A stretch of 64,000 nucleotides of DNA from Phytophthora quininea. Its lineage: Eukaryota > Oomycota > Peronosporomycetes > Peronosporales > Peronosporaceae. The stretch's first letter is position 1. Each line of letters opens with the position of its first letter. A program made the translations under genes and the position numbers. Shown here in pieces: positions 30,423-59,100 of the stretch. The stretch covers positions 1 through 64,000 of the forward strand of contig JAAVTG010000151.1 in assembly GCA_011947345.1 (NCBI GenBank). Reading direction: 5' to 3'. The notes under the pieces were generated by a model, which ran no database searches, was not told the origin of the DNA, and saw nothing but the letters and a program-made list of their open reading frames with translations.

Positions 30423-31401
30423 CGCTGCGGAATGAGAACCCGGGCAGTTTTGACGCTTTTGACGTCGTCGGTATTTCCTGTGCAATTCACGGGACTATTT
30501 GCCAGAATCGAGCGACGGAATTTCCTCAACCCAATTGCTACGGGGACCACCACCGCCACCACCACCACTACATTCCTCCTGACCGACGATGGAGACGCCC
30601 CTGTGCTTCTGACGGCGCTGCTGCTGATTCCAACCAAGTTGCAGACCCTCCCCACGTCTCGCAGCTCATCTCGGACTTCCTGCTGCCCAGGACGATCGAC
30701 GCTGCCACCTACCTGGACCTCCAGCTGATGGTGCAGATCTACGGCCACTGTCGTCCGTGGACGGTCGACGCCACGAACGGCGCTGCCGACAGAGGGAGAG
30801 TGGACATTCTCAAGTGGCTGCGTACAAACCGCAGGGAAGGCTGCTCCACGAAGGCTCTGAACGGAGCTGCCGCCAACGGCCACTTGGACGCTGTCCAGTG
30901 GCTGCTCAAGAGGTACCAACACCACTGCAATTCAGGGAAGCTCTGCAACTTGCTGCAGCTAATGGCCACGCCCACGTTGTCCAAGTTCTGTGGGAAAGGT
31001 TCCAGGACAGATTCGCTCCTCCTCCCGCTCTGAAGACTGCGGCAAGAAACAACCACGTCGCTGTGGTCATGATGATGATTCCGTGGGTGTTCAACCCAAC
31101 CGGAGAGTCCTTGTCGATTCGGAACGCGCTGTACGAGGCTGCGGAGAATGGACACGTCGAGACGGTGGCGCTGTTGCTGGGAGCAGCAATGTGTAACCAA
31201 GTGGAGATCGTGAAGCTGCTGCTAGAGACCATGAAGAAGCAGCCGTGGGGAAAGTCTTTGGGGCACGATATCCACTGCGCGTTGGAGGCGGCGGCCGTCA
31301 ATTCTAACGACGCAATTGTTGGGCTGCTGGATGAATGGGATCTGCGTCCGGTTGAAGGTCATTTGCCAGCTAAACCCGACACGGTAGTGCGACCGAGATA
31401 G
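30420..31401 (+). pseudogene. Ankyrin-repeat gene, plus copy (lacks 100 codons)
   Basis: It matches the minus-strand gene at 35036-36327 closely: family head SQLISDFLLPRTIDAATYLDL, then HCRPWTVD, GAADRGRVDILKWLRTNRREGC and GAAANGHLDAVQWLL. Relative to that copy it lacks exactly 100 codons, about three ankyrin repeats, between LLLG and AAMCNQVEIV (near 31182). The C4 run at 30650-30653 is C5 in the sister copy, and this single base breaks the frame here. A second break near 30920 is shared by both copies. The 3' end is VVRPR rather than PDTV-stop. Confidence 0.7.
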
Positions 31402-31566
31402 GCTCTACGAAGATTAATAAGGTGGAGATGCCGGGATCAACTGGAGTCGACGCAGAAGCAGGTATGAAAGAAGCACCCGAGTTGCCCGGGGGTTAAGATC
31501 GGGTTACGAACGAGAACTCGGTCAAATTCAACTCAGATGGTCTATGGTGACTCCCGTGGTAAAGTG

Positions 31567-31935
31567 TTATTGTTGAGTCTTTTCAAGCCGCTGGTCATCT
31601 TGGGGTGGAAATGCCTCTTGAATTTTTAGGGTTCTTGAGCTTGTATACTTTCTTGAATTTGCTGTAGAGCAGCCATTTCGGGTCATCACGCGGCAAGTCT
31701 TTGAGTTTGAACCCCGGAAGAGCACTTTCGGCGTAGCTCCTTTAGCAACCCCGGCATTGGCGGCTTCCGCACGTAGCATCAAAGGGCGATCGCCCTTCGT
31801 CATTGATGGTAGTGCTCGCTCTTCGTCGTCTGGATCGGCGTGCGTGGAGGTTTTGTCCACCGTAGACTCCACCGCAGACTCCACCTCTGACGTCCTCAGA
31901 AATCGTCGGGAAGAGCAATGCTTACGGGGCTTACG
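31567..31935 (-). pseudogene. RxLR effector pseudogene, signal peptide lost
   Basis: Reading the minus strand from about 31925, RFLR is followed by DDEERALPS and the family C-terminal block with a W-L-x-Y-S-K-F motif. The frame shifts at the C4 run 31712-31715 (one added base restores it). Upstream of RFLR there is no signal peptide: a TAA lies in frame and the sequence is a GTAA/TTACGAG-rich repeat (31918-31965). The gene head was probably lost to that insertion. It belongs to the same family as 39890-40306 and 52162-52611. Confidence 0.65.
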
Positions 31936-32658
31936 AGATTACGAGTTTACGAGTTTGTCGCCGATTACGACCTCTGTTCAAAATGTTCAAGCTGTGGTCA
32001 CGTCGGAAGCCAGCATGGCCAATGACGGAGTTGGGCGCACGCCTCGGTGCCTACCGATGGCGGCGTGATTGTGCCACGAGGTCTGGATGGACTTGAGGCA
32101 CGATGCATGAGTCTTCAGTGGGCGCTGGCACGCGCTCACTATTGCATGTTCGAGGCACGGTGAAGGAGCAGCCTTCCGTCGCCGAGTTTCTCTTTGGTTT
32201 TGCTCATTAGTAAACTTTCCTTTCGGAAAACACCCTGGGTATCGCGATAGAGTTTTACGAGTTTACGCAGACCGGGAATGGATGATCGTCGCTCGAAAGA
32301 TGCAAAACAGCACGTACTGCAAGATGGCGGGTTCAAATGCTGTTGGAAGGCGAGAATGAGCACATGCAACGACTTCTTGATTGAACGCGTGCCAGACGCG
32401 TTTCGGTCCCGCCATGGCCTCCTCAGTGGCTGTACCAATCTTGAACTGAGAATTTCCTGCCCCTGGCTCTCCTAGCACCAATTGTACTGACTATTCCTTC
32501 TAGAACCCTCGACAGGCTCTACCGTGAGTTACTTACTACTCTGGCATCGACGCCTTATAGTGGGCACCGCTAGTGCACTTCCTACAAATGCAAGCTTGAA
32601 TTACGAGCCGACTGTATTAAACAGAATTGAATTCAGTCCTCGAGTCAAGGCAACTTCC
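31936..32658. other. Intergenic with TTACGAG-like low-complexity repeats
   Basis: No gene is recognised. Short TTACGAGTT-type repeats occur at 31918-31965 and again near 32252-32268. They resemble the TTTACGG-rich insertions in the ankyrin copies at 17340-17420 and 24060-24130. Confidence 0.5.
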
Positions 32659-34372
32659 TTAGTCCTGCTCGACTTCCTTCTCCACCTTGCTCGATTGCAC
32701 CGGAGAGTGCTCAAGTAGGTAGCTTCCATCCGTCGGTTGGTTTTCATCTGCACCCATGGCCAACGAGACAATCACCGTCACGATCGGAGGGACAATAAGC
32801 GTCACGATGAAGGTGATCATGCTGTTCTGAGAGTAAAGACCCTCGGGCAACACGAACCAGTTAAAACCGCCGACAAATTTGCCTTGCGCAATGACGCCGC
32901 AGATGAAGATGGTGACGAGACCCGCAGCACAGCCAGCCAATGCACCAACTCGAGTCGCTGGCTTCCACATGCACAGCAGCATCGGCCCGACCGCAGACGA
33001 GCACACCAAGTCAGCGATCAGGAACAGGTTCAAAATGTTGTATTGGTGGTAGGCGATCACGACGGCAGGCACATTGAGCAGAGCTACAAGCAACACAGAA
33101 AATTAGCATGCCCAACACAGTACCGGTCGAATGGATTTAAACTTACCGCAGATGATACGGGCGTGCAGCAAGTTCAGCTTGGGGAAGACCGCAGTCAGCT
33201 CACCGACAATTCCCAATTGGAGCGAATCCGCCGCACCACTTGACATCATGGCGATGACAATGATGATCAGCACTTCCCAGCCATGCCCCATGTCCATCAG
33301 AACAGCGAAGAAGTACACGCCGTCGGGATACGCCAAGTAGGAAACCATGCCGGCGATAGCGAGCGCCACCGTGAAGAGGACCATGATGACACAGCAAATG
33401 TACACCGCTTTGCGAACGGTGGCGTCGTCGTGGGCAGCAAATACTCGCTGCCAAAAACTTGTGAAGAAGAGCTCGTTGGCTGACACAGCGATCACCAGAG
33501 TCACGAGCGTCTCGAAGCCATCAACGGTGAAGGCAGCGACGTTGGTCTTCGACCAGGCACCGTCGGGAATGGAGACGTGGAAGCACATGGCGATGCACAC
33601 AGCGGCGACCAAAATCACAGCACCGATGCCTTGCCAGACGTCTGTGGCCAAACTGGCACGCAGACCACCGACCAAGAGATAGACGTTCGTAAGCAGCACG
33701 ACCACCAGCAGCGGGACGATCGGATTTGCGTTAGGCGACATCATGACTGTGAGCTGCACCACACACGTCAACTCAGACGCTAGCGAGATGAACTGGCTGA
33801 AGACAGCGATCAGCGCCACGTAGGCCTGCATGACGTAGCCAAAGCGCTTCGAGATGACCTCCGTCATGGTGAGATTGTCGCCAATGGCCGACCGCATGTA
33901 AGGGCCGGCAAAACCCAAAGCCAACATAGCTGACGCGCACGAGAGGGCGTACCCGATGACGCCCCACGAGCCAGCATCGACTCCAATCTCCGGGAAGGTG
34001 AACAGAGCCGACGACCCCATTCCAGCGGCAAAGAAGCACCAGGCTAGACGCAGAGCACTCGTCGAGTTCTTGGCACTAAGGAAAATAATGTTAAGATGAG
34101 AAAATATACTGATCATAGCAACATCATTGTGGCCATACCTGACGAAGTTCTTGATGCTGGTGACGTCCATCGTTCGACTGACGATGACGGCGTAGATGGC
34201 CACGGCAGTCAAAGTGGCGATCATGACGCCATAGGTGACTCCACTTGCTAGCATGTTGGGCTATTGTTCTCGGATGAATCAAATATTAGTCAAGTTGGAA
34301 CTATGATAGCAGATTGAACACGTACTTTAGATCTGGAGACGACAGCACCGCGGATAGCACATCGAGAGACAT
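32659..34372 (-). CDS. Sodium:solute symporter (DUR3/Dur31-like), TPP-riboswitch controlled; probable thiamine transporter
   Basis: An SSS-family transporter with about a dozen hydrophobic helices. Family blocks include KNSTSALRLAWCFFAAGMGS, ISKRFGYVMQAYVAL, LLVGGLRASLATDVWQG and FTSFWQRVFAA. Coding exons are 34254-34139, 34075-33147 and 33083-32659, with introns 34076-34138 and 33084-33146. From ATG 34254 the protein has 489 residues. A 5' intron ends at 34261. If its donor is at 34321, an upstream ATG at 34372 adds 19 in-frame residues (MSLDVLSAVLSSPDLKY then PN), which better completes the first helix. The neighbouring donor at 34325 (GTACGT) puts this upstream start out of frame. A TPP aptamer lies just upstream. 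Substrate is inferred from the riboswitch, not from residues. Confidence 0.88.
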
Positions 34373-34398
34373 CACAAACGTCAACACAACAGAAACCA

Positions 34399-34503
34399 CA
34401 GCAGTCCCTCCGCCGGTATGAACCGGATCAGGTTCTAAGGGTCTAATCTCAGCCGGTCAGCGCATGGAACTCGTCCATGACTGGCATCGGCACCCCTCGC
34501 TGG
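34399..34503 (-). promoter_or_regulatory. TPP riboswitch (THI element)
   Basis: Read on the minus strand, the TPP aptamer consensus is present in order: GAGGGGTGCC, CTGAGA, ACCCTTAGAACCTGATC, a CCGG...CCGG stem and CGGAGGGA. Closing P1 is CAGC/GCTG. P3 is CATGGA/TCCATG, while the second riboswitch in this window has CACGGA/TCCGTG, a compensatory pair change. The aptamer ends about 75-80 bases before the donor of the 5' intron of the transporter gene. In known eukaryotic cases TPP binding changes splicing, so control of the 34321/34325 donors is a reasonable inference. Confidence 0.95.
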
Positions 34504-35035
34504 TTGCACGTCAGTCTCTACAAACCCCAACCGGAGGCAAGAAATGGACCAAAGAGAGGAGGGGTAAATACCGGAACGGAGACCGTGGGAAGTAGGCTCT
34601 TGGTTTGGTTCTTGCGGAGCTCTTGAGTCTCTCGAGACGAATTCGCAAGTGAGACTTTCTGCGACTCAGCCAGCTACACAGGTGGGTGAGATTTGTGCAC
34701 GCGCTGGAGAGCAACTGGCACCAAGCCCATGGTTGCAAGCGTCCCGTCGCGACAGTCATAAATTGACCTTTTTCCTACCCTAGGATGGCACATCACACTT
34801 GTCAACGCCTCTAGACGCTTCAACAGCACTCATTGCTTCAATTTACCACGCCAACTAGCTAGCTGTACCTTGGCCGAGCGAGCAATGTACAGCGACTCGA
34901 CTCATGTGATAGTGTAAGTTCGCGCAAGAAGCTTCCCCACTTGATAGTCAGCATGACAACGACAACCTGTCGCTGGCACTTGTGACACCATCATCATGCA
35001 GAGATTACCATGTCGGGCTGCAGCACCAAGTCCAG

Positions 35036-36327
35036 CTACACTGTGTCGGGTTTAGCTGGCAAATGACCTTCAACCGGACGCAGATCCCATTCATCCAGCA
35101 GCCCAACAATTGCGTCGTTAGAATTGACGGCCGCCGCCTCCAACGCGCAGTGGATATCGCGCCCCAAAGACTTTCCCCACGGCTGCTTCTTCATGGTCTC
35201 TAGCAGCAGCTTCACGATCTCCACTTGGTTACACATTGCTGCTTTGATCAACGCAGAGCCAAGTCTACTTGGTGTTGTATCAAGAAGTAGCACCTCCACC
35301 ACAGCAGCATGGCCATTCATCGTAGCAGCTCCCAGCGCGTTCTCGACCGCGTCGGAATCTGTGTCAACCTCAGGAAGCAGCAACCGCACAATTGGAGCGT
35401 GGCCATTTGCCGCTGCGGCGACCAAAACTCGACCATTGTCCTTGGACGTCCCCAACCCCAGCAACATCCGAACCACTCCGGCGTGGCCTCCAGTAGCAGC
35501 CCTCTCCATCAGCCCTGTCACGTCGTCCAGCTCGCCACTCTCTCCCAGCAACAGCGCCACCGTCTCGACGTGTCCATTCTCCGCAGCCTCGTACAGCGCG
35601 TTCCGAATCGACAAGGACTCTCCGGTTGGGTTGAACACCCACGGAATCATCATCATGACCACAGCGATGTGGTTGTTTCTTGCCGCAGCCTTCAGAGCGG
35701 GAGGCAGAGCGAATCTGTCCTGGAACTTTTCGCACAGAACTTGGACAACGTGGGCGTGGCCATTAGCTGCAGCAAGTTGCAGAGCTTCCCTGAATTGCAG
35801 TGATGTTGGTACCTCTTGAGCAGCCACTGGACAGCGTCCAAGTGGCCGTTGGCGGCAGCTCCGTTCAGAGCCTTCGTGGAGCAGCCTTCCCTGCGGTTTG
35901 TACGCAGCCACTTGAGAATGTCCACTCTCCCTCTGTCGGCAGCGCCGTTCATGGCGTCGACCGTCCACGGACGACAGTGGCCGTAGATCTGCACCATCAG
36001 CTGGAGGTCCAGGTAGGTGGCAGCGTCGATCGTCCTGGGCAGCAGGAAGTCCGAGATGAGCTGCGAGACGTGGGGGAGGGTCTGCAACTTGGTTGGAATC
36101 AGCAGCAGCGCCGTCAGAAGCACAGGGGCGTCTCCATCGTCGGTCAGGAGGAATGTAGTGGTGGTGGTGGTGGCGGTGGTGGTCCCCGTAGCAATTGGGT
36201 TGAGGAAATTCCGTCGCTCGATTCTGGCAAATAGTCCCGTGAATTGCACAGGAAATACCGACGACATATCCAACGCGTCAAAAGCGTCAAAACTGCCCGG
36301 GTTCTCATTCCGCAGCGATGTGTGCAC
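35036..36327 (-). CDS. Ankyrin-repeat protein, minus copy (full set of repeats)
   Basis: The family head (TALLLIPTKLQTLPHVSQ then DFLLPRTIDAATYLDL) is in one frame here because the G5 run at 36072-36076 is intact. Ankyrin repeats follow: GAADRGRVDILKWL, GAAANGHLDAVQWLL, AAANGHAHVVQVL, AAENGHVETVALLLG, AATGGHAGVVRMLLG, AAAANGHAPIVRLLL, AATMNGHAAVVEVLL and AAMCNQVEIVKLLL. One frame break near 35810 is shared with the plus copy, so it is either old or a splice feature not recognised. The protein ends LPAKPDTV. Homology to the plus copy extends upstream to about 36390. Confidence 0.65.
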
Positions 36328-36372
36328 TTCTCGTACTCATGGTCTGCAGCAGCCTCGTCCTTCTCCTCTTCG

Positions 36373-36582
36373 TCAGCACTTTGACCCCACGACTTTGTTC
36401 GTGAATGCGGCGATTTCGAGCGTTCGCTTGCTCCAGGTGTCTTGCTTTCTCGCGCGCTTCTCCTCCCTCGTCAACTTGGCAGAGGAAGTGACGGCACGCG
36501 CAGCTTCAAAGTCGCCATTTGACGGAATGAAGCGGCTGTCCGGGCCATGACTGCGTAAGAATGTCTTCTTCTTCGGTCCCAT
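36373..36582 (-). CDS. Hypothetical basic ORF
   Basis: A 69-codon frame (MGPKKKTFLRSHGPDSRF...) is lysine/arginine-rich with a helical stretch (SSAKLTREEKRARKQDTW). No family is recognised. It sits at the outer limit of the ankyrin duplication, so it may be a fragment of a gene cut by the rearrangement. Confidence 0.3.
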   Translation of the reverse strand: MGPKKKTFLRSHGPDSRFIPSNGDFEAARAVTSSAKLTREEKRARKQDTWSKRTLEIAAFTNKVVGSKC

Positions 36583-37067
36583 TCGAGTTCCGACAGCTTG
36601 GGTGCGTTCCAGCCCGCAGGAAAAATAATAGCCAATTTCATAATGTTTTTTTACCTGTGTTTCCAATTTACAGGTGCATGCTTTTGTGTCTACAAGTACA
36701 CGTAGTTGTCGAAGAATCCCCGACGCTTTCTGCGGACGACAGAATCGGAAACTGCAATGGATGTCGAACCTACGGTAACAAAACTGCGCGAAGAGACCCA
36801 AGCTTGTTGATCAACAGCAAATTCAGGCAAATGTATAGGCAAAAGAAGCCTCGTCATGAAAATCACTCTGCTCGCAACGGCTAAGTTAGTAGTATCTGGC
36901 GTAGGGAAGCCCTGCTGCTACATTAGCACTTACTTAAACAAAATACTTAGAAGTAATATCGTAATCTGTAGCCGTCCCGTTGAGGACTCGACAAACCCAC
37001 AAACCCGACGTATTTCTCGATTCGTGCCGTGGGGTACCTGTCAAACTACGGAAAGTTGTCGAGCACA
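36583..37067. other. Effector-gene debris, no intact gene
   Basis: Short pieces resemble the local RxLR family: LLINSKFRQMY near 36810-36840 (like the Y-S-K-F block) and MKITLLATAKLVV at 36856 (like a signal peptide). The last 60 bases before 37068 resemble the leader of the 52162 effector. No open gene remains. Confidence 0.4.
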
Positions 37068-37527
37068 ATGCGACTTCGTGTTGTCATCCTATTAGCAACC
37101 GCAACACTTGCTGTGACCGGAGATGCAGGTGCTCGAGCCAACGATGGCGAAATTTACTGTTCCCGATGGCAACGGCGACCGACGATTGCTGAGAGGACAC
37201 CGGCAAGGAGGAAGGAGTGGCGATATTAAAATCAACTCGGTCGATGACGAAGAGCGAGCGTTACCTTCCATGTCGACGACTAGTAAGAAGCGGGCGAAAA
37301 TTGAGGGGAGGGAGGCGAACTGGCGGTCCGCGAGAGATTTACGCCCACGACGTTCTACCGGTGGCTAGGACTCGAAAAATTGCCTCGCAACCACCCGAAA
37401 TGGCTGATGTACAGCAAATTCAAGGAGGCGTACAAGCTAAAGAACCCGAAAAATCCAAGAGATCTTTCAAGCCAAAGAAACCTCGCTTATTGAGACTCAA
37501 GATGAACCGCAAATTCAGGGAATCGTA
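37068..37527 (+). pseudogene. RxLR effector pseudogene (RLLR-DDEER)
   Basis: It opens with a signal peptide (MRLRVVILLATATLAVTGDAGA), then RLLR and DDEERALPS, and a C-terminal part parallel to the intact gene at 52162-52611, in shifting frames. Compared with that gene, about two bases are missing near 37140. One G is missing in the G4 run at 37305-37308 and one A in the A5 run near 37449. The first change is not a simple run error, so this copy may be truly broken. The leader is homologous to that of 52162. Confidence 0.7.
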
Positions 37528-38222
37528 AAAGCAGAAAAAGTTTTGAGAAGCACTTAAGACAAGCAACTACAAGTACAACTATTTCAAACCTCTGAGTATT
37601 CTCTGTCATTCGGTGGATATCACAAAAAAATTAACGCAGTGGGAACTGATGGAGTTTACCTGGAAAAATGAACTTGCGGGTTAAAAATGTCGGGTTATGT
37701 TTGCACGAGCTCACTTGTGCCTTTGTCGCAGTCCTGATCAGTGTTACTACAATTTCATTCGATTTTCTTGAAACTGGTATCGCGTCGTTGACAATGAGAG
37801 GCTGTGTAGACATCCTCGGCAACCCAACGAGCATCAGTTTGTGTTGACAGTAATGAAAGACAGGTAAATATCCGTAGCAGTGACGTGGGCATTTGCGATT
37901 ATGGACTAGACGGGGATACCGGAGTTGCTGCTATAAAAACTGGGCTTGAAGCTGGACAGGAACGGGATTTTGTCAGGTTGGAGTTTGTACGGGTATCGGC
38001 AAACATTTTGGCGGGGAAGTTGATGTGCAGAATAATTGACTCATCCAGAGGCCTTGCCAATTGTCCTGTCATCCGACTGCAAACCTCGGTGCGGTGCAAG
38101 TTGCTTTGTGATGTGTGCGAAAACTCTATTTGAGCGAGTTCGTTTGACTGGATCGCAGAGATCTCACTTCCAAATTCACGTCAAAGGTGTCAGATATCGA
38201 CAAATTTGTTGGCTAGCTTACG
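37528..38222. other. Intergenic, no gene and no riboswitch
   Basis: I searched this stretch for the TPP aptamer words (CTGAGA, ACCCTTAGAACCTGATC, GGAGGGA) and found none. Homology to the other transporter copy begins only at the ATG at 38223. Confidence 0.6.
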
Positions 38223-39819
38223 ATGTTAGCAAGTGGAGTCACCTATGGCGTCATGATCGCCACTTTGACTGCCGTGGCCATCTACGCCGTCATCGTCAGT
38301 CGAACGATGGACGTCACCAGCATCAAGAACTTCGTCAGGTATGGCCACAATGATGTTGCTATGATCAGTATATTTTCTCATCTTAACATTATTTTTCCTT
38401 AGTGCCAAGAACTCGACGAGTGCTCTGCGTCTAGCCTGGTGCTTCTTTGCCGCTGGAATGGGGTCGTCGGCTCTGTTCACCTTCCCGGAGATTGGAGTCG
38501 ATGCTGGCTCGTGGGGCGTCATCGGGTACGCCCTCTCGTGCGCGTCAGCTATGTTGGCTTTGGGTTTTGCCGGCCCTTACATGCGGTCGGCCATTGGCGA
38601 CAATCTCACCATGACGGAGGTCATCTCGAAGCGCTTTGGCTACGTCATGCAGGCCTACGTGGCGCTGATCGCTGTCTTCAGCCAGTTCATCTCGCTAGCG
38701 TCTGAGTTGACGTGTGTGGTGCAGCTCACAGTCATGATGTCGCCTAACGCAAATCCGATCGTCCCGCTGCTGGTGGTCGTGCTGCTTACGAACGTCTATC
38801 TCTTGGTCGGTGGTCTGCGTGCCAGTTTGGCCACAGACGTCTGGCAAGGCATCGGTGCTGTGATTTTGGTCGCCGCTGTGTGCATCGCCATGTGCTTCCA
38901 CGTCTCCATTCCCGACGGTGCCTGGTCGAAGACCAACGTCGCTGCCTTCACCGTTGATGGCTTCGAGACGCTCGTGACTCTGGTGATCGCTGTGTCAGCC
39001 AACGAGCTCTTCTTCACAAGTTTTTGGCAGCGAGTATTTGCTGCCCACGACGACGCCACCGTTCGCAAAGCGGTGTACATTTGCTGTGTCATCATGGTCC
39101 TCTTCACGGTGGCGCTCGCTATCGCCGGCATGGTTTCCTACTTGGCGTATCCCGACGGCGTGTACTTCTTCGCTGTTCTGATGGACATGGGGCATGGCTG
39201 GGAAGTGCTGATCATCATTGTCATCGCCATGATGTCAAGTGGTGCGGCGGATTCGCTCCAATTGGGAATTGTCGGTGAGCTGACTGCGGTCTTCCCCAAG
39301 CTGAACTTGCTGCACGCCCGTATCATCTGCGGTAAGTTTAAATCCATTCGACCGGTACTGTGTTGGGCATGCTAATTTTCTGTGTTGCTTGTAGCTCTGC
39401 TCAATGTGCCTGCCGTCGTGATCGCCTACCACCAATACAACATTTTGAACCTGTTCCTGATCGCTGACTTGGTGTGCTCGTCTGCGGTCGGGCCGATGCT
39501 GCTGTGCACGTGGAAGCCAGCGACTCGGGTCGGTGCATTGGCTGGCTGTGCTGCGGGTCTCGTCACCATCTTCATCTGCGGCGTCATTGCGCAAGGCAAA
39601 TTTGTCGGCGGTTTTAACTGGTTCGTGTTGCCCGAGGGCTTCTACTCTCAGAACAGCATGATCACCTTCATCGTGGCGCTCATTATTCCGCCGATCGCGA
39701 CGGTGGTGGTCTCGCTGGCCATGCCTACGACGGAAGCCCAACCCAATGATGGCGGCTACCTGCTTGAGCATGGCCCGAAATCATCGTCCACGGCGGAAAA
39801 AGGTGGGGATCAGGCCTAA
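38223..39819 (+). CDS. Sodium:solute symporter (DUR3/Dur31-like), copy without riboswitch
   Basis: Exons are 38223-38338, 38403-39331 and 39395-39819, giving 489 residues. Exon 1, intron 1 (apart from one T-run base), exon 2 and intron 2 are nearly identical to the minus-strand copy (32659-34254). Exon 3 is alike until about 39640 and then clearly diverges (VALIIPPIATVVVSLAM against VTLIVPPIVTVIVSLAM). The C-terminus ends AEKGGDQA instead of EKEVEQD. Its upstream region is unrelated, without aptamer, 5' intron or N-terminal extension, so translation must start at this ATG, inside what is probably the first helix. It may be constitutive or silent. Confidence 0.82.
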
Positions 39820-39889
39820 GAGACTCCCTTGAAGACTCCCCAGCCATAAGGACACTAATCGCCAAGAATCTTTCGCAGCAGGTCGTCGT

Positions 39890-40306
39890 CTATTTTTCTT
39901 TCTTGAGAACTTTTCGAAGCAGGGTGTTGTACTTCTCTGGGGACTGGGCCTTGTACTTCTTGATAAATTTGCTGTAGAGGAGCCACTTCGAATGCGATCG
40001 CGGCAAGTTGGCCAGATTCATACCGAAATACAGGTCCTTCGGGGCGGCTCCAACCCCAAGCAGTTGGTCTACTTTTATGTTCGTTTCCTTAATGAGTTTC
40101 TTCCGTTTCGTCGACGATGTTGCCATGGAAGGCAAAGATGCTCTCTCTTCATCGTCGTCGTGGATGGTTCCGATGCCACCACTCTCTCCTTCCTCTTCAA
40201 TATTCACCAGGAATCGTCGGCCGCCGTTGTCACCGTGGCCTTGGGCACCTGCATCATCGATCAGGGACAGCGTGGCTACTGCTACGAGGACGACATGGAG
40301 ACGCAT
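39890..40306 (-). CDS. RxLR-type effector, RFLV-DDDEER variant
   Basis: An intact 138-codon frame begins with a signal peptide (MRLHVVLVAVATLSLIDDAGA). The host-translocation motif reads RFLV instead of RFLR, followed by DDDEER. The C-terminal part has the family block LPRSHSKWLLYSKF and a lysine-rich end (VLKKEK). RxLR proteins are secreted by the pathogen and act in plant cells; the target is unknown. Its leader is homologous, in inverted orientation, to that of the 52162-52611 gene. It is convergent with the transporter at 39819. Confidence 0.85.
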   Translation of the reverse strand: MRLHVVLVAVATLSLIDDAGAQGHGDNGGRRFLVNIEEEGESGGIGTIHDDDEERASLPSMATSSTKRKKLIKETNIKVDQLLGVGAAPKDLYFGMNLANLPRSHSKWLLYSKFIKKYKAQSPEKYNTLLRKVLKKEK

Positions 40307-40600
40307 TGTGGTCTACAAGATCACACGGCTTGCCTTGCCCACCACCGAGCGGATTGCGAAATAGGTCGGGTTTGTCGGGTGCACATCGGAGCGGCCTTGC
40401 TGATTGCGACTTTTGTTGACGGGGCATACGAATATGATGTGTACGAGCAGACATGGAGCGAGCAGCGCTGCCGATTGCTCGCAATGAGATCCGTCTGGGG
40501 TTTTCAACGCAGAAATCACCACGTAAAATACGCGAGACAAGGCCAGCTAAAATAACAAGAACTCCCACGATCACGTCTGAACCGTCAGGTAGTCAGTCTA
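40307..40600 (-). promoter_or_regulatory. Effector leader/promoter, inverted copy of 51818-52161
   Basis: About 290 bases upstream of the RxLR gene match, in reverse complement, the region upstream of the effector at 52162. The homology includes TAGACCACAATGCGTCTCC at the start codon and TAGTCAGTCTAC farther out. The copy at 51818-52161 carries an extra tandem duplication. The pair suggests duplication of gene plus promoter. Confidence 0.65.
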
Positions 40601-52161: not shown

Positions 52162-52611
52162 ATGCGTCTCCATGTCGTCCTCGTAGCAGTAGCCACGCTG
52201 TCCCTGATCGGAGATGCGGGTGCTCAAGCCAACACTATGACGAAGTTTGATCATCATGGTGACAAGGGCGACCGACGGTTCCTGAGAGTGGACACAAAGA
52301 AAGAAGAAGAGAGCGGCGGTATTAAAACAAATGCGGTCGACGACGGAGAGCGAGCGTTGCCTTCCATGGCGACGACCAGTAAGAAGCGCGCGAAAATTGG
52401 AGAGGAAGCCGGCGAACTGGCGGTGCGCGACAGATTTACGCCCAAGACGTTCTACCGGTGGCTAGGACTCGAAAAATTGCCTCGCAACCACCCGAGATGG
52501 TTGATGTACAGCAAATTCAAAGAAGCGTACAAGCTAAAGAACCCCAACAAGTTCAAGAGAACGTATAACCCAAAGAAGAAGACCATCTTGTTGCGACTCA
52601 AAGAAACGTAG
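52162..52611 (+). CDS. RxLR effector (RFLR, DDGER)
   Basis: An intact 149-codon frame. The signal peptide is MRLHVVLVAVATLSLIGDAGA. RRFLR follows at about residue 38, and VDDGERALPS takes the place of dEER. The C-terminal half has FYRWLGLEKLPRNHPRW and LMYSKFKEAYKLKNP, then a basic end (NPKKKTILLRLKET). It is a paralogue of 39890-40306, 37068-37527 and the 31567-31935 remnant. It is secreted and probably acts in host cells; the target is unknown. Confidence 0.88.
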   Translation: MRLHVVLVAVATLSLIGDAGAQANTMTKFDHHGDKGDRRFLRVDTKKEEESGGIKTNAVDDGERALPSMATTSKKRAKIGEEAGELAVRDRFTPKTFYRWLGLEKLPRNHPRWLMYSKFKEAYKLKNPNKFKRTYNPKKKTILLRLKET

Positions 52612-53595: not shown

Positions 53596-53964
53596 ATGCG
53601 TCTTCATATTGCCATCCTCGTGGCACTAGCGACACTGTTTGCAAGCGCCGGCGCTGCGGATTTCCCGATCGATGAGAATGACAAACGATTCCTGAGGGTT
53701 AACACCGCGGCCGAAGAGCGAGCGGTGCCTGCAATGGCAACAACAATGCATCTGGCGAAAAATCTGGATCGAACTGTCAGCAGTTTGATGCGGCGTGGGG
53801 CGACCCCAACGTCGCTGAAGGCCTGGCTGGGACTCGCCCGCTTGCCGCGATCGCATCCGAATTGGGCCACCTACAGCAAATTCGTCCAAAAGTTCAAGGA
53901 GAACTTCCCTGACAAGTACAACGAGCAGCTGCTGCTCAAGGTGCTCGAAAAAAGACGTAGATAG
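53596..53964 (+). CDS. RxLR effector (RFLR, AEER)
   Basis: An intact 122-codon frame. The signal peptide is MRLHIAILVALATLFASAGA. KRFLRVN is followed closely by AEERAVP. The C-terminal part has SLKAWLGLARLPRSHPNW and TYSKFVQKFKENFPDKY, parallel to the 39890-40306 protein. It is shorter than its paralogues because the spacer between RFLR and EER is reduced. The gene starts 89 bases after the MITE, so the MITE lies in its promoter. It is secreted; the host target is unknown. Confidence 0.88.
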   Translation: MRLHIAILVALATLFASAGAADFPIDENDKRFLRVNTAAEERAVPAMATTMHLAKNLDRTVSSLMRRGATPTSLKAWLGLARLPRSHPNWATYSKFVQKFKENFPDKYNEQLLLKVLEKRRR

Positions 53965-54225
53965 AGATCACAAAGTCAATGGCAAGCTTCGGCTTGGTGC
54001 AAGTGGAGCTCTCGATTGAGTGAGATCGCCCATCGCGGTACCTCGCCTTTTAACAGCCAATCACAACCTCGAATCTGCATTTGTCTTGCTTCTAGTATAC
54101 TGCACTCCTCTTGACTGGCTCGCGACGAGCTCACTTTCGAATTTCGATCAAGAGTGGCAAGCGGTATTTATTATATGTTTTCCCATTGATTTTTGCCTCT
54201 GGGGTTGACACCACTGACGCTCAAG

Positions 54226-54328
54226 CAGCGAGGGTGCCGACGCCAGCCACGGACCAGTTCCGTGCGCTGACCGGCTGAGATGAGACCCTTAGAACCTGAT
54301 CCGGCTCGTACCGGCGGAGGGACTGCTG
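54226..54328 (+). promoter_or_regulatory. TPP riboswitch (THI element)
   Basis: The second complete TPP aptamer: GAGGGTGCC, CTGAGA, ACCCTTAGAACCTGATC, CCGG...CCGG and CGGAGGGA, closed by CAGC/GCTG. P3 is CACGGA/TCCGTG, which keeps pairing relative to the other copy (CATGGA/TCCATG). It lies about 150 bases before the ATG at 54477. A 3' splice site (TTTTAG, ending 54468) sits 8 bases before that ATG. A 5' intron with a donor near 54405 (GTAGGA) or 54431 (GTAAAT) is likely. Confidence 0.95.
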
Positions 54329-54476
54329 TGACTTCTTGTTGTTGACGCTTCCTGTGTGTATCTATTTCCCTCAAGACCTGTTCTTCCACCCCCAAGAAAA
54401 TCTTCAAAGTAGGATTTTGTTGTACTTCATGTAAATAGTTACAGATCTAATCTTATTTATGGTTTTAGGGACCAAG

Positions 54477-56060
54477 ATGCTCGCAAGCGGAGTGACCTAC
54501 GGCGTCATGATCGCCACGTTGGTGGCAGTTGCCACCTACGCCATCGCCGTCAGTCGACGGATGGAGATCAACAATGTCAAGAACTTTGTCAGGTAAAACC
54601 ATTTTTATTAGCATTTTTTTTACTAAACATTTTGATGATACTGCAGCGCCAAGAACTCGACGACTGCTCTTCGTCTGGCCTGGTGTTTCTTCTCTGCTGG
54701 AATGGGCTCATGGACGCTCTTCTCCTTCCCTCAGATCGGAGTGGACGCTGGTTCCTGGGGTGTCATTGGTTACACGCTCTCTGGAGTCTGCGGCATGTTG
54801 GTGCTGGCCTATGTGGGTCCGTACACTCGTGCTGCTTTCGGGGACAACGTCACGATGACGGACGTGGTCAACCAGCGCTTCGGCTACGCCATGCAGGTAT
54901 ACGTGGCGCTCATTGCCGTCTTCTACCAGTTTATTTCGCTGGCGTCGGAGTTGACGTGCGTTGCACAGTTGACGACCATGATGTCGCCGAATGCCCACCC
55001 GATCATCCCAATCTTGGCGGTCGTGCTGCTCACGAATCTGTACCTTTTGATCGGCGGACTGCGCGCCAGTTTGGCCACGGACGTGTGGCAGGGCATTGGC
55101 GTGATCGTGCTGCTTGCTGCAGTTTGCATTGCCATGTGCTTCCATGTGTCCATTCCTGATGGAGCGTGGTCGAGCACCAATGTGGCTGCGTTCACGACCG
55201 CAGGCTTTGAGACGCTCGTGACCCTGGTGATCGCAGTGACTGCGTCCAACCTTTTCTTCACGGGCTTCTGGCAGCGTGTGTTTGCAGCATATGACGACGA
55301 CACCGTTCGCAAGGGCGCCTACTACGCTTGCTGCATCATTATTCCATTCACAGTGGCGCTTGCGCTGGCTGGCATGGTTTCGTATCTTGCATACCCGGAT
55401 GGCGACTTGTTCTTCGCGATCCTAATGGACATGGGTCACGGCTGGGAAGTGCTCATTGTCATTGTGATTGCGATGCTGGCGAGTGGCGTGAGCGACTCGA
55501 TCCAGATCGGGATTGCTGGTGAGCTTACAGCGTGCTTCCCAAAGTTGAACTTGCTGTACGCGCGTATTATTTGCGGTAAGTTCACCTCAGTTCCTCCTCG
55601 TTACTGTTGTGTAGATGTTAACGGATGGAGTGTTATTCCTGCAGCTCTGCTTAACGTCCCGGCCGTCGTGATCGCCTACCACCAATACGATATCTTGAAC
55701 CTGTTCTTGATCGCTGATCTACTGTGCACGGCCGCCGTCGGCCCGATGCTTCTCGGTGCGTGGAAGGGTGCGACGCGTACGGGCGCTCTTGCTGGAAGCG
55801 CTGCCGGCCTGATCACTATCTTCATTTGCGGCGTCATCGCGCAAGGCAAGTTTGTTGGCGGCTTCAACTGGTTCATCCTGCCAGAGGGTCTCTACTCGCA
55901 GAACAGCATGATCACGTTCATCGTGACGCTCATCATCCCGCCGCTTGTGACTGTGATCGTTTCGCTGTTTACGCGCAGTGAGCTTCCGACGGATACCAGC
56001 TACCTGCTTGAGCACTCCCCGTCCAGGCGATCAATGGGCAGAAAGATTGATCGCGCTTAA
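54477..56060 (+). CDS. Sodium:solute symporter (DUR3/Dur31-like), TPP-riboswitch controlled; probable thiamine transporter
   Basis: Exons are 54477-54592, 54647-55575 and 55645-56060 (486 residues), with the same exon plan as the other two copies. It is more diverged from both than they are from each other (WTLFSFPQIGVDAGSWGVIGY; YAMQVYVALIAVFYQFISL; FTGFWQRVFAAYDDDTVRKG). Intron 2 (55576-55644) is 69 bases with no stop in frame, so retaining it would add 23 residues. The TPP aptamer upstream, and Phytophthora's need for thiamine, point to thiamine or precursor uptake. A urea or polyamine substrate is the alternative suggested by family names. Confidence 0.88.
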
Positions 56061-56165: not shown

Positions 56166-59100
56166 TCACTCAGTTTCACACAACTGCGCGTTGTTATCCA
56201 TCAGGAAGCGCACCACATCGCCGTGTGCGTTTTGCATGGCAAATAGTAGCGGTGTCCAGCCTTTTGCATTTGCCAAGTTCACTGTTGCCTTGTGTTCAAC
56301 CAAAAGTCTAGCAATGCCGAGATTGCCTGCAAAGCAAGCTTTACTGAGAGACGTATCTCCAGTTCTGCACTGAGTATCAACATTGGCACCACGCTGTAGC
56401 AGTATCAGCACCGCAGCTTCATGGCCTTCCTCCACCGCCAGCAAGAGCGGCGAATTCCGTCCATTATCGAAAATATCAGTGAGAGCGCCACGGTCGAGGA
56501 GAAAACGCATCATGCCAAGATTACACTGTTGTGCAGTCAGATGCAGAGCTGTCTTGCCGTTCTTGGCGTGTACGTTGACGTTGGCCCCTCGTTCGATAAG
56601 GAGGTCGCAAATCGCCTCGTTGCCTTCGGTGGCAGCAAATAATAAGGCGGTCCATCCAGCGTCATCTGCTTTGTGAATGTCTGCGTTAAAAGCTAAGAGA
56701 AGTCGAGCGACGTTGATCTGGTTGTGCTTTACCGCCTCGTGAAGTGGTGTTAATCCAGATCTTGTTGCTGCGTCCACTGGCGCATCAACGTTCAGCAGGA
56801 ACTTCACGACAGCTTCGTGACCCCCGCGTGCAGCTAACAACAACGCGGTGCATCCCTTCTTATCTCGTGTTTCGATACCGGTACAATATTCACTCGTCAA
56901 AGCAGCTCGAACTCTATCCAGATCACCATGCGAGGCAGCGTTTAGAAGAGCTGCCTCGGTTTCGTGAAGTGCTCGTTGGTATCCTTTGATTAGGTTTGCA
57001 GTGTGCTTGTGATTTTGTGCAATTGCGGCATCAACTGCCGCCTGTCCTTCATTATTTTGTAACTTTGTGTCGCTCCGGTATTCCAGTAAGAGAGACGCAA
57101 TATCTTCATGACCTCGCTCAGCAGCGATAAAAAGTGGAGTTCGACTAGCAACGTCAGCCAAATCTACCGCAGCACCCTCTTCCAAAAGTGCTTTGACCAC
57201 GTCCGTGTGTCCTGGCTCGGCTTCTACGCTCAACGATGTTCGTCTCGCGTGATTCCGTACGTCAACGGTTAGTTTTCCTTCTTCATCAAATAAATCTGTA
57301 AGTCCGCTTTCATCTAGGTCGTATTCATCACAAAACCTTCCGAGGGTCAATAGATATCGGACGAGCTCTGAGTGGCCACGTCGTGCTGCTTTGTGTAAAG
57401 CACAATCGCCTTCATCATCCATCGAATCGATCTTAGCTCCACGATAAACTAGAGCCATGAGAATCTCTTTGTATCCTGCTTCCGCTGCGAAAAGTAGCGG
57501 AGCCCAGCATTTCTTGTTCGTCAAGTCGACAGCGGCACCGCAATCGAGAAGAAGCTGAAAAATATCCACGTGACCGAGATGAACAGCGATATTTAGAGCA
57601 GTATTTCCGTCGTTATTCTGCGCATCGATGTCAGCATTCTTGCTGAGCAACAGGCGAACCGTTTCCTCGTGGTTATTAGCAATAGCTAAAGTAAGTGGCG
57701 TATCTCCGTTTACATTTTGACTCGAGACCCGTCCACCTTTTTCCAAAGCAGCTTTTACTCTGTCCACGTTGCCTTGAGATGCGCTCTCCAACACGATATT
57801 ATCTATCTGGAAAATCTCAAGCTCTCGTTGATGAAGAAGGGCGATAGCATTGGCATTTTCCTGCTGCTGCGCGATATCGAATGCAGTGAATCCCTTGCCG
57901 CATGTTGTGTACAAATCAGCGTGACCATCAAGAAGAAGGCGTATTGCCTCGAAATGCCCACAGCCAACCGCATACATGAGAGCGGTCTTCCCAAACTATC
58001 TCGCAAGTCGACGTCAGCACCTTCGTCGAGCAACAAAGCTAAGATACCACATAAATTAGCTTTGGTTGCAGCAACTAAAGCCGTCTCGCCAGTTTCATCT
58101 GCAATATCGGTATTTGCATTCCACTCAAGGAGAAGTTGAACCATCTCGAGATTTTCCTTAAGAATGCCCTTCATCAACAGAGGCGTTTTCCATTCATCGG
58201 CCATATTCGATGAAGCTCCACATTGAAGAAGCAATGAAGCGACAGAGCAGTCTCCTATATCCACAGCGAAACGCAGAGCTGTATCTCCCCTTATATTGCT
58301 TGCATTAACGTCTGCGGGATGATTAAGAAAGAGAAATAGCCTCTTTCCATCCACCTTTGGCAGCATACATCAATGGAGTATTTCCAAACGCGTCATGTGA
58401 GTCAGCTTCCGCACCGTGGTCGAGCAGACACGTCATCATACTGGTATGGCCGTGAGTTGCTGCATATGTGATAGCAGTCGATCCATCTGCGTTGGTAGCA
58501 GCAACATTTGCATTTCTGGATAGTAGAAGCTGAACTATTTGTTCGAGGCCTTGCTCACACGCTCTCATGAGCGGCATCTCCTTTTATATTCATTAACTCG
58601 ATTGAAGCACCATTATCCAACAGCAAGGATGCAATCTTATAACTCCCTGAGTGCAGGGAGTAAAATAAAGCTGTTTCACCGAGTGCATCTTGAGCATTTA
58701 TGTCTGCCTCACTATCGAGTAGGAGTCGTATCATTTCTTTTGAGGATTCTCTTGCAGCAATCATCAGTGGTGTCGTTTGATTTCAATCACACAAGTCCAC
58801 CGAGGCATTAAGTTCTAGCAACAATCGAACAGCGCCTATATTGTTGCTTCCAATTGCCACTGATAACGCCGTCTGGCCAGTATCATTTTGAGCGTCAATG
58901 GCTCCGTTGTGCTGAGTTAGTAAATGAACAGTGTCACTGTGTCCCCCTTTGATAGTAAACATTAGTGGTGTCCAGTACGTTGATCCCACCAGATCAGTTT
59001 TGGCACGGTAATGGAGAAGCATTCGAGCAATATCCAAGTGTCCTTCTTGTGATGCGATGCTCAGTGCAGTCCGTCCTGTAATATCTTGCACGTTCACATC

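Follow-up and report, generated by a model that had tools for sequence, protein, structure and literature searches.

Introduction

Riboswitches for thiamine pyrophosphate (TPP) were reported from Phytophthora in 2014 (PMC4260697), and a 2018 survey found them in 15 of 17 oomycete genomes (Mukherjee et al., PMC5882874). The survey describes a riboswitch group linked to sodium symporters, widespread in and unique to oomycetes, whose genes are annotated as putative TPP transporters, together with a urea-transporter group found in P. cinnamomi and P. sojae only. In a diatom the symporter SSSP is required for thiamine uptake (PMC9544697), and P. infestans has been called a thiamine auxotroph, many oomycetes being assumed to import thiamine (PMC6747730). 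No functional test of a riboswitch-linked oomycete symporter was found in the titles and abstract openings of the literature searched. Here we analyze a stretch of 64,000 nucleotides of Phytophthora quininea DNA (contig JAAVTG010000151.1, positions 1 to 64,000; hereafter the window), which carries three paralogous transporter genes of the sodium solute symporter (SSS) type: A and B, each with a TPP aptamer in its 5' leader, and E, a near-copy of B without one.

The pairing of riboswitch and symporter is already known from related species, and A and B are new instances of it that fit, by its group description, the oomycete sodium-symporter group of PMC5882874. We consider it probable that A and B are thiamine importers repressed by their riboswitches at high TPP, likely via the choice of 5' splice site, and that E is free of the switch. 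What may surprise a specialist is that one of the genes has a twin free of the switch, and that bacterial relatives of the protein are riboswitch-linked too.

TPP aptamers in the leaders of two paralogous genes

An earlier note on this DNA had read a TPP riboswitch upstream of gene A by its boxes and had proposed a search with the Rfam model RF00059. Run on the window, this search scores the gene A aptamer at 58.0 bits over model positions 1-105, which exceeds the Rfam gathering score (54.3) and corresponds to E = 9.1e-9 when the whole window is counted; the boxes and closing stem are all present where the note had put them: CTGAGA at 54275, then ACCCTTAGAACCTGATC and CGGAGGGA, with P1 formed by CAGCG/TGCTG, an extended P3, no P3a, and P4/P5. 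The conserved CUGAGA, P2, P4 and P5 elements are likewise all found in the RF00059 alignment. A second aptamer, in the leader of gene B, is stronger (69.8 bits, E 1.1e-11) and was missed by the earlier reader, as was the third paralogue, E. Apart from the TPP model with its two matches, no Rfam family attains its own cut-off in the window (Table 1).

The genome searched is an 87.2-Mb assembly of 993 contigs and unknown completeness, in which the window is part of the contig that we label C99. A genome-wide search in which 49 of 2995 first-look candidates were scored yields four aptamers above the cut-off, two on C99 and two on contig C573; the latter stretches look like other-haplotype copies of the former, with DNA identities of 97.8% (A) and 96.4% (B). 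The two aptamer-bearing paralogues A and B are themselves about 73-74% identical in DNA. We infer that both aptamers bind TPP.

Table 1. Features of the window discussed in the text
Feature	Position	Strand	Basis
TPP riboswitch aptamer of gene A	54221-54340	+	cmscan RF00059
TPP riboswitch aptamer of gene B	34387-34507	-	cmscan RF00059
Gene A, SSS-type transporter, 486 aa	54477-56060; exons 54477-54592, 54647-55575, 55645-56060	+	GT/AG sites and open frame
Gene B, paralogous transporter, 489 aa	32659-34254; exons 34254-34139, 34075-33147, 33083-32659	-	gene model
Gene E, further paralogue of 489 aa, short aptamer-free leader	38223-39819; exons 38223-38338, 38403-39331, 39395-39819	+	gene model
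Candidate distal 5' splice site S1 of gene A (CG^GTATTT), 5' of aptamer	54164-54165	+	GT kept
Candidate proximal 5' splice site S2 of gene A (CAAA^GTAGGA), 3' of aptamer	54409-54410	+	GT kept
Candidate 3' splice site of gene A, TTTTAG	54467-54468, 8 bases 5' of ATG 54477	+	sequence
Candidate splice sites of gene B	S1 34571, S2 34325, 3' site ending 34261	-	sequence
Putative core promoter, initiator-like, CTCACTTTCGAATTTCG	54130-54148	+	aligned with similar element 5' of B and E

Gene models and transporter family

The three-exon model of gene A is also valid in its C573 copy, and its stop codon closes the last exon at 56060. A search with A recovered E in the window, a distant copy, F, on contig C613, and counterparts on C573. 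Paralogue F (C613:315500-321500) is without a riboswitch and matched in three pieces, owing to a pseudogene, to introns or to sequence error.

Pfam scans of A and B, as raw frames and spliced, gave no family, so the SSS assignment is built on relatives, NCBIfam and fold. PF00474 is found at E<=0.001 in 24 of 32 aligned relatives, and paralogue F lies above the PF00474 cut-off; the gene A protein scores 41.8 bits against TIGR00813, whose cut-off is 184 bits, and a fold test returned the SSS transporter fold for it. Among the matches listed, the proteins closest to A that bear names come from Phytophthora, and outside oomycetes the nearest named relatives are bacterial symporters at 31-38% identity. 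The earlier proposal of an SSS-type transporter downstream of the aptamer is supported.

Its more specific label, "DUR3-like", lacks specific support. At 486 residues the gene A product falls short of the roughly 700 expected and of the 704-773 of solved DUR3 chains, and a profile built with oomycete proteins places SGLT1 (7e-15) far above DUR3 (6.8e-5), an order against which speaks a profile of bacterial-type relatives alone, where DUR3 ranks first. That gene A encodes a DUR3-type urea transporter merely lying beside an aptamer is very improbable in view of the oomycete-led profile, the length of the product and the recurrence of the TPP link in the bacterial relatives (see below).

Leader layout and a candidate splicing switch

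We compared four leaders, those of A and B and of their C573 copies, C and D. Relative to the ATG, a GT is kept at -313 to -317 (S1) and at -68 or -71 (S2), the aptamer lies between the two, and an acceptor ends 6-8 bases 5' of the ATG; in gene A this is the TTTTAG ending at 54468, at the place where the earlier note had put a 3' splice site. All upstream ATGs past the presumed transcription start fall between S1 and the acceptor in A and in B, and those of A share no position with those of B. As sequence sites, this reproduces the Type I layout, with distal and proximal 5' sites around upstream open reading frames (uORFs) and a 3' site before exon 1. The putative promoter element 5' of gene A is of a type that we take to be initiator-like.

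In the mechanism that we propose, A and B would be SSS-type, probably Na+-coupled thiamine importers in an oomycete apparently unable to make thiamine, and high internal TPP would shut them down through the riboswitch in the 5' leader, likely by alternative 5' splice-site choice. At low TPP, splicing from S1 to the acceptor would remove the aptamer together with every upstream ATG and yield a translatable mRNA; with TPP bound, S2 would be used or the leader left unspliced, the uORFs would remain and translation would be blocked, as splicing from S2 to the acceptor would leave upstream ATGs around and inside the aptamer. Gene E would be expressed free of this switch. We infer the splicing switch, the substrate and the Na+ coupling, and the leader layout makes TPP-dependent splicing plausible.

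Control by other means is possible, though doubtful: the aptamer may stay in the mature leader and act on translation or mRNA stability. Removal of the S2 intron alone (54409-54468) would leave it in the mRNA, and in the bacterial relatives the ATG stands 9 nucleotides after the aptamer core (72 of 80 loci matching), which points to translational control there. Against such control in the oomycete genes, a GT is kept 5' of the aptamer in both paralogues, and the upstream ATGs are removable only by S1 splicing.

Bacterial relatives share the riboswitch link

The bacterial relatives add a second line of evidence that thiamine, or a compound related to it, is what this symporter clade handles. 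Searching with 16 bacterial-type proteins (10 from named bacteria) returned 317 relatives, and the 80 best were taken as loci. The sample is narrow: selected for resemblance to a Halomonas protein, it consists largely of Halomonadaceae together with some Marinobacter. A TPP aptamer lies directly 5' of the symporter gene in 75 of the 80 loci (73 by a strict motif, 2 by eye), whereas the strict motif occurs only once elsewhere in them, on either strand. The five loci without an aptamer are all from Marinobacter (L060, L089, L095, L101 and L108); another Marinobacter locus, L110, has the motif. In the Halomonas stenophila locus L069, a second TPP aptamer-like motif is seen at position 1443, about 1 kb 5' of the symporter-linked one.

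Rfam, applied to 20 of these loci, places TPP above its cut-off in 14. A second core pattern matches 72 of the 80, among them L057 and L107, whose variant aptamers were recognized by eye, and the constant 9-base spacing from core to ATG in all 72 suggests translational control of the symporter in these bacteria. Six neighbouring open reading frames (ORFs) scanned at two bacterial loci included no thiamine gene (NCBIfam matched three, two as ilvD and one as aldehyde dehydrogenase), so the bacterial link to thiamine rests on the riboswitch.

Thiamine metabolism and the imported substrate

Profile searches of the genome covered PF09084, PF02581, PF01964, PF01946 and PF04263. They gave no match to THI5/NMT1 (PF09084), thiamine monophosphate (TMP) synthase (PF02581) or ThiC (PF01964). 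No full-length THI4 (PF01946) was matched either: the profile finds seven pieces, each covering at most about 42 of 235 positions and one of them just above the cut-off (29.4 vs 26.2 bits), and we attribute these to a dinucleotide-binding motif of general occurrence. A strong match (E 3.3e-34) was obtained, in contrast, for thiamine pyrophosphokinase (PF04263). At face value, this organism could activate the thiamine that it imports but could not assemble it, which favours thiamine over hydroxymethylpyrimidine (HMP) as the substrate. The absence of biosynthesis genes is not general to oomycetes, because others have riboswitch-linked NMT1 or THI4 genes (PMC5882874).

The earlier note had left the substrate as thiamine or a precursor. 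Of these, thiamine gains from the TPP-aptamer links of the bacterial relatives, the missing biosynthesis genes and the diatom SSSP, and the precursor becomes less likely because we found no gene to join HMP to thiazole. The same bacterial, genomic and diatom evidence means that the uptake role is supported by more than the adjoining aptamer, and thiamine itself is a well-supported best reading of the imported substrate.

Residues give a suggestive hint. The described marks of HMP/thiamin symporters are a Tyr in transmembrane helix TM2, an acidic residue in TM3 and, in TM6, a Phe with His or polar residues behind it (SiaT 78/139/254; PMC11452348). In an alignment of 32 rows, 13 bacterial-type (5 named bacteria) and 19 oomycete-type (A, 13 named oomycetes and 5 other), Y81, E140 and F242 of gene A are invariant throughout. 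Profile-fragment mapping onto SiaT returned chance matches and one weak SGLT1 match with no SiaT alignment, and the likeness stays suggestive because these three positions could not be carried over to SiaT numbering.

Several results weigh against regulated thiamine import by A and B. On the side of the transporter, no Pfam family matches the gene A protein, even with the threshold relaxed to E<=10. The two residues after F242 are H-Q or H-H in all 13 bacterial-type rows vs F/Y/L-T in all 19 oomycete-type rows, and owing to this difference in TM6 the substrate may have shifted between the two. Six of the 20 bacterial loci scanned fall below the Rfam TPP cut-off, three of them Marinobacter loci without the motif (L060, L089, L101) and three with the motif or a variant of it (L064, L107, L110). 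Moreover, the ThiV protein of SAR11, an SSS symporter linked to a TPP riboswitch, has been proposed to take up HMP in a strain unable to use thiamine (PMC11452348). Import of a precursor such as HMP in place of thiamine nevertheless seems improbable for A and B: with no TMP synthase match, in an assembly whose completeness is unknown, HMP alone would be unusable by the known route, and thiamine pyrophosphokinase is present.

On the side of regulation, folding of the four leaders with ViennaRNA, with and without an enforced aptamer whose pairs were set by hand (one non-standard pair, C,A, dropped in each), gave no consistent change at S2, where the mean unpaired fraction in the free and aptamer states is.28/.28 in A,.48/.57 in B,.52/.48 in C and.50/.50 in D. 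At S1 it rises in A (.44/.55), B (.25/.70) and C (.45/.66) and falls in D (.47/.40). The splicing switch is for this reason read from the layout. All 31 aptamer pairs, again set by hand, are standard in the 3 distinct aptamer sequences. These are too few for a covariation signal, and the count of pair changes across the four aptamers is no better than in shuffles: one pair is changed on both sides and still pairs, a value that 184 of 500 shuffles attain. Finally, the predicted TPP aptamers tested in diatoms, also stramenopiles, were not working riboswitches despite strong conservation (PMC9544697).

The diatom case and the lack of a clear switch in the folded leaders speak for a rival reading, in which the aptamers here are conserved relics or function only weakly and thiamine leaves the expression of A and B unchanged. 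We judge this unlikely. The diatom aptamers lie in 3' untranslated regions (PMC9544697), whereas those of A and B lie in 5' leaders between candidate splice sites; they stand above the cut-off in two paralogues that have diverged to about 73-74% DNA identity, and pairing survives at the single pair in which both bases differ.

A switch-free twin of gene B

In 34600-40500, the surroundings of E, no Rfam family matched at E<=10, and neither the stretch containing F nor that containing the C573 counterpart of E gave a TPP match. B and E form an inverted pair, identical at 115/116 positions in exon 1, 63/64 in intron 1, 929/929 in exon 2, 63/63 in intron 2, 197/200 in the first 200 bases of exon 3 and 181/227 in its remainder. 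Their high similarity begins at the start codon, yet a promoter-like stretch 60 bases 5' of the E ATG resembles those of A and B, with scores attained by 0 and 1 of 500 simple shuffles, and E for both reasons looks like a homogenised copy whose leader is without the riboswitch. A full retrocopy was considered and rejected, since both introns of the coding region are still present in E. On C573, the counterpart of E is matched as two separate pieces that contain stops, and it may be interrupted; this is not certain, because unspliced introns also add stops to the B and E rows. As neighbours on the same contig that are almost identical over most of the coding region, one with a riboswitch and the other lacking it, B and E offer a natural control for what a eukaryotic riboswitch contributes.

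Stretches of an ankyrin-repeat ORF flank B as a further inverted pair (window 30650-36075; 534 nucleotides at 99% and 213 at 97%), the copy at 35036-35968 being scanned as ankyrin. As these stretches and B/E are all inverted copies, the 30-40 kb region is either a palindromic cluster of recent origin or a feature of the assembly. Another ankyrin-repeat ORF, of 603 residues (56166-57977, minus strand), is convergent with gene A. Short ORFs or remnants near the transporter genes (52162-52611, 53596-53964 and about 37070-37530) carry motifs that we take to be RxLR/EER-like; Pfam RXLR matches the first below threshold (21.8 bits vs 26.9), and a Pfam scan gave no RXLR match for the second.

Origin of the riboswitch link

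One history that would join these observations has an oomycete ancestor acquiring a bacterial riboswitch-controlled symporter gene, riboswitch included, the RNA, which in bacteria probably hides the ribosome-binding site, being rebuilt to splicing control and E later shedding the switch; we think it quite unlikely. In a quick tree of 102 rows the oomycete-type rows form one side of a branch of about 2 changes per column (SH-aLRT, the Shimodaira-Hasegawa-like approximate likelihood-ratio test, 100); the tree leaves the point where they join the bacterial-type rows unplaced, and its two outgroup rows are very long-branched. The P5 of aptamer B, CCGGTTCATACCG, is the commonest P5 among the bacterial loci (14 of 72), a count for which the background frequency in other TPP aptamers is unavailable, and IMG/VR gave no match to an exact 28-base query. 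Aptamer architecture speaks against co-transfer, the oomycete aptamers having a long P3 and no P3a, many bacterial ones a P3a-like hairpin by eye (L110 none). Oomycete aptamers have been described as most like cyanobacterial ones (PMC5882874), a likeness consistent with descent from bacteria, though not from those in our sample. The matter bears on the question whether eukaryotes obtained their TPP riboswitches from bacteria along with the genes, and co-transfer followed by loss of a switch, if true, would have left a regulated importer next to one that is not.

Comparison with known systems

The oomycete group of Mukherjee et al. (2018; PMC5882874) shares with A and B a TPP riboswitch 5' of a sodium-symporter-superfamily gene, and differs in that neither a switch-free twin nor riboswitch-bearing bacterial relatives figure in the parts compared. 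The fungal Dur31/NCU01977 proteins (PMC5997356) are likewise eukaryotic and SSS-type with a TPP riboswitch, and thiamine transport has been shown in Candida; none of the 120 relatives listed is named as a fungal protein, however, and the fungal riboswitch is part of a long internal intron and involves pairing over a long distance (PMC5882874). ThiV/SSSP of bacteria and algae (McRose et al. 2014, PMC4260697; PMC11452348; PMC9544697) are also SSS-type with a TPP riboswitch and, likened by description, have the Tyr, acidic residue and Phe at places that look to correspond to those invariant in our 32 rows. They differ from the oomycete-type rows in that the latter have no His behind the TM6 Phe and that the riboswitch of the oomycete genes lies within a 5' leader containing candidate introns. 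As for the mode of control, splice-site use in A and B is predicted, whereas the arrangement itself is that of Type I splicing control in fungi and oomycetes (PMC5882874), with two alternative 5' sites flanking the uORFs and a 3' site just before the ATG.
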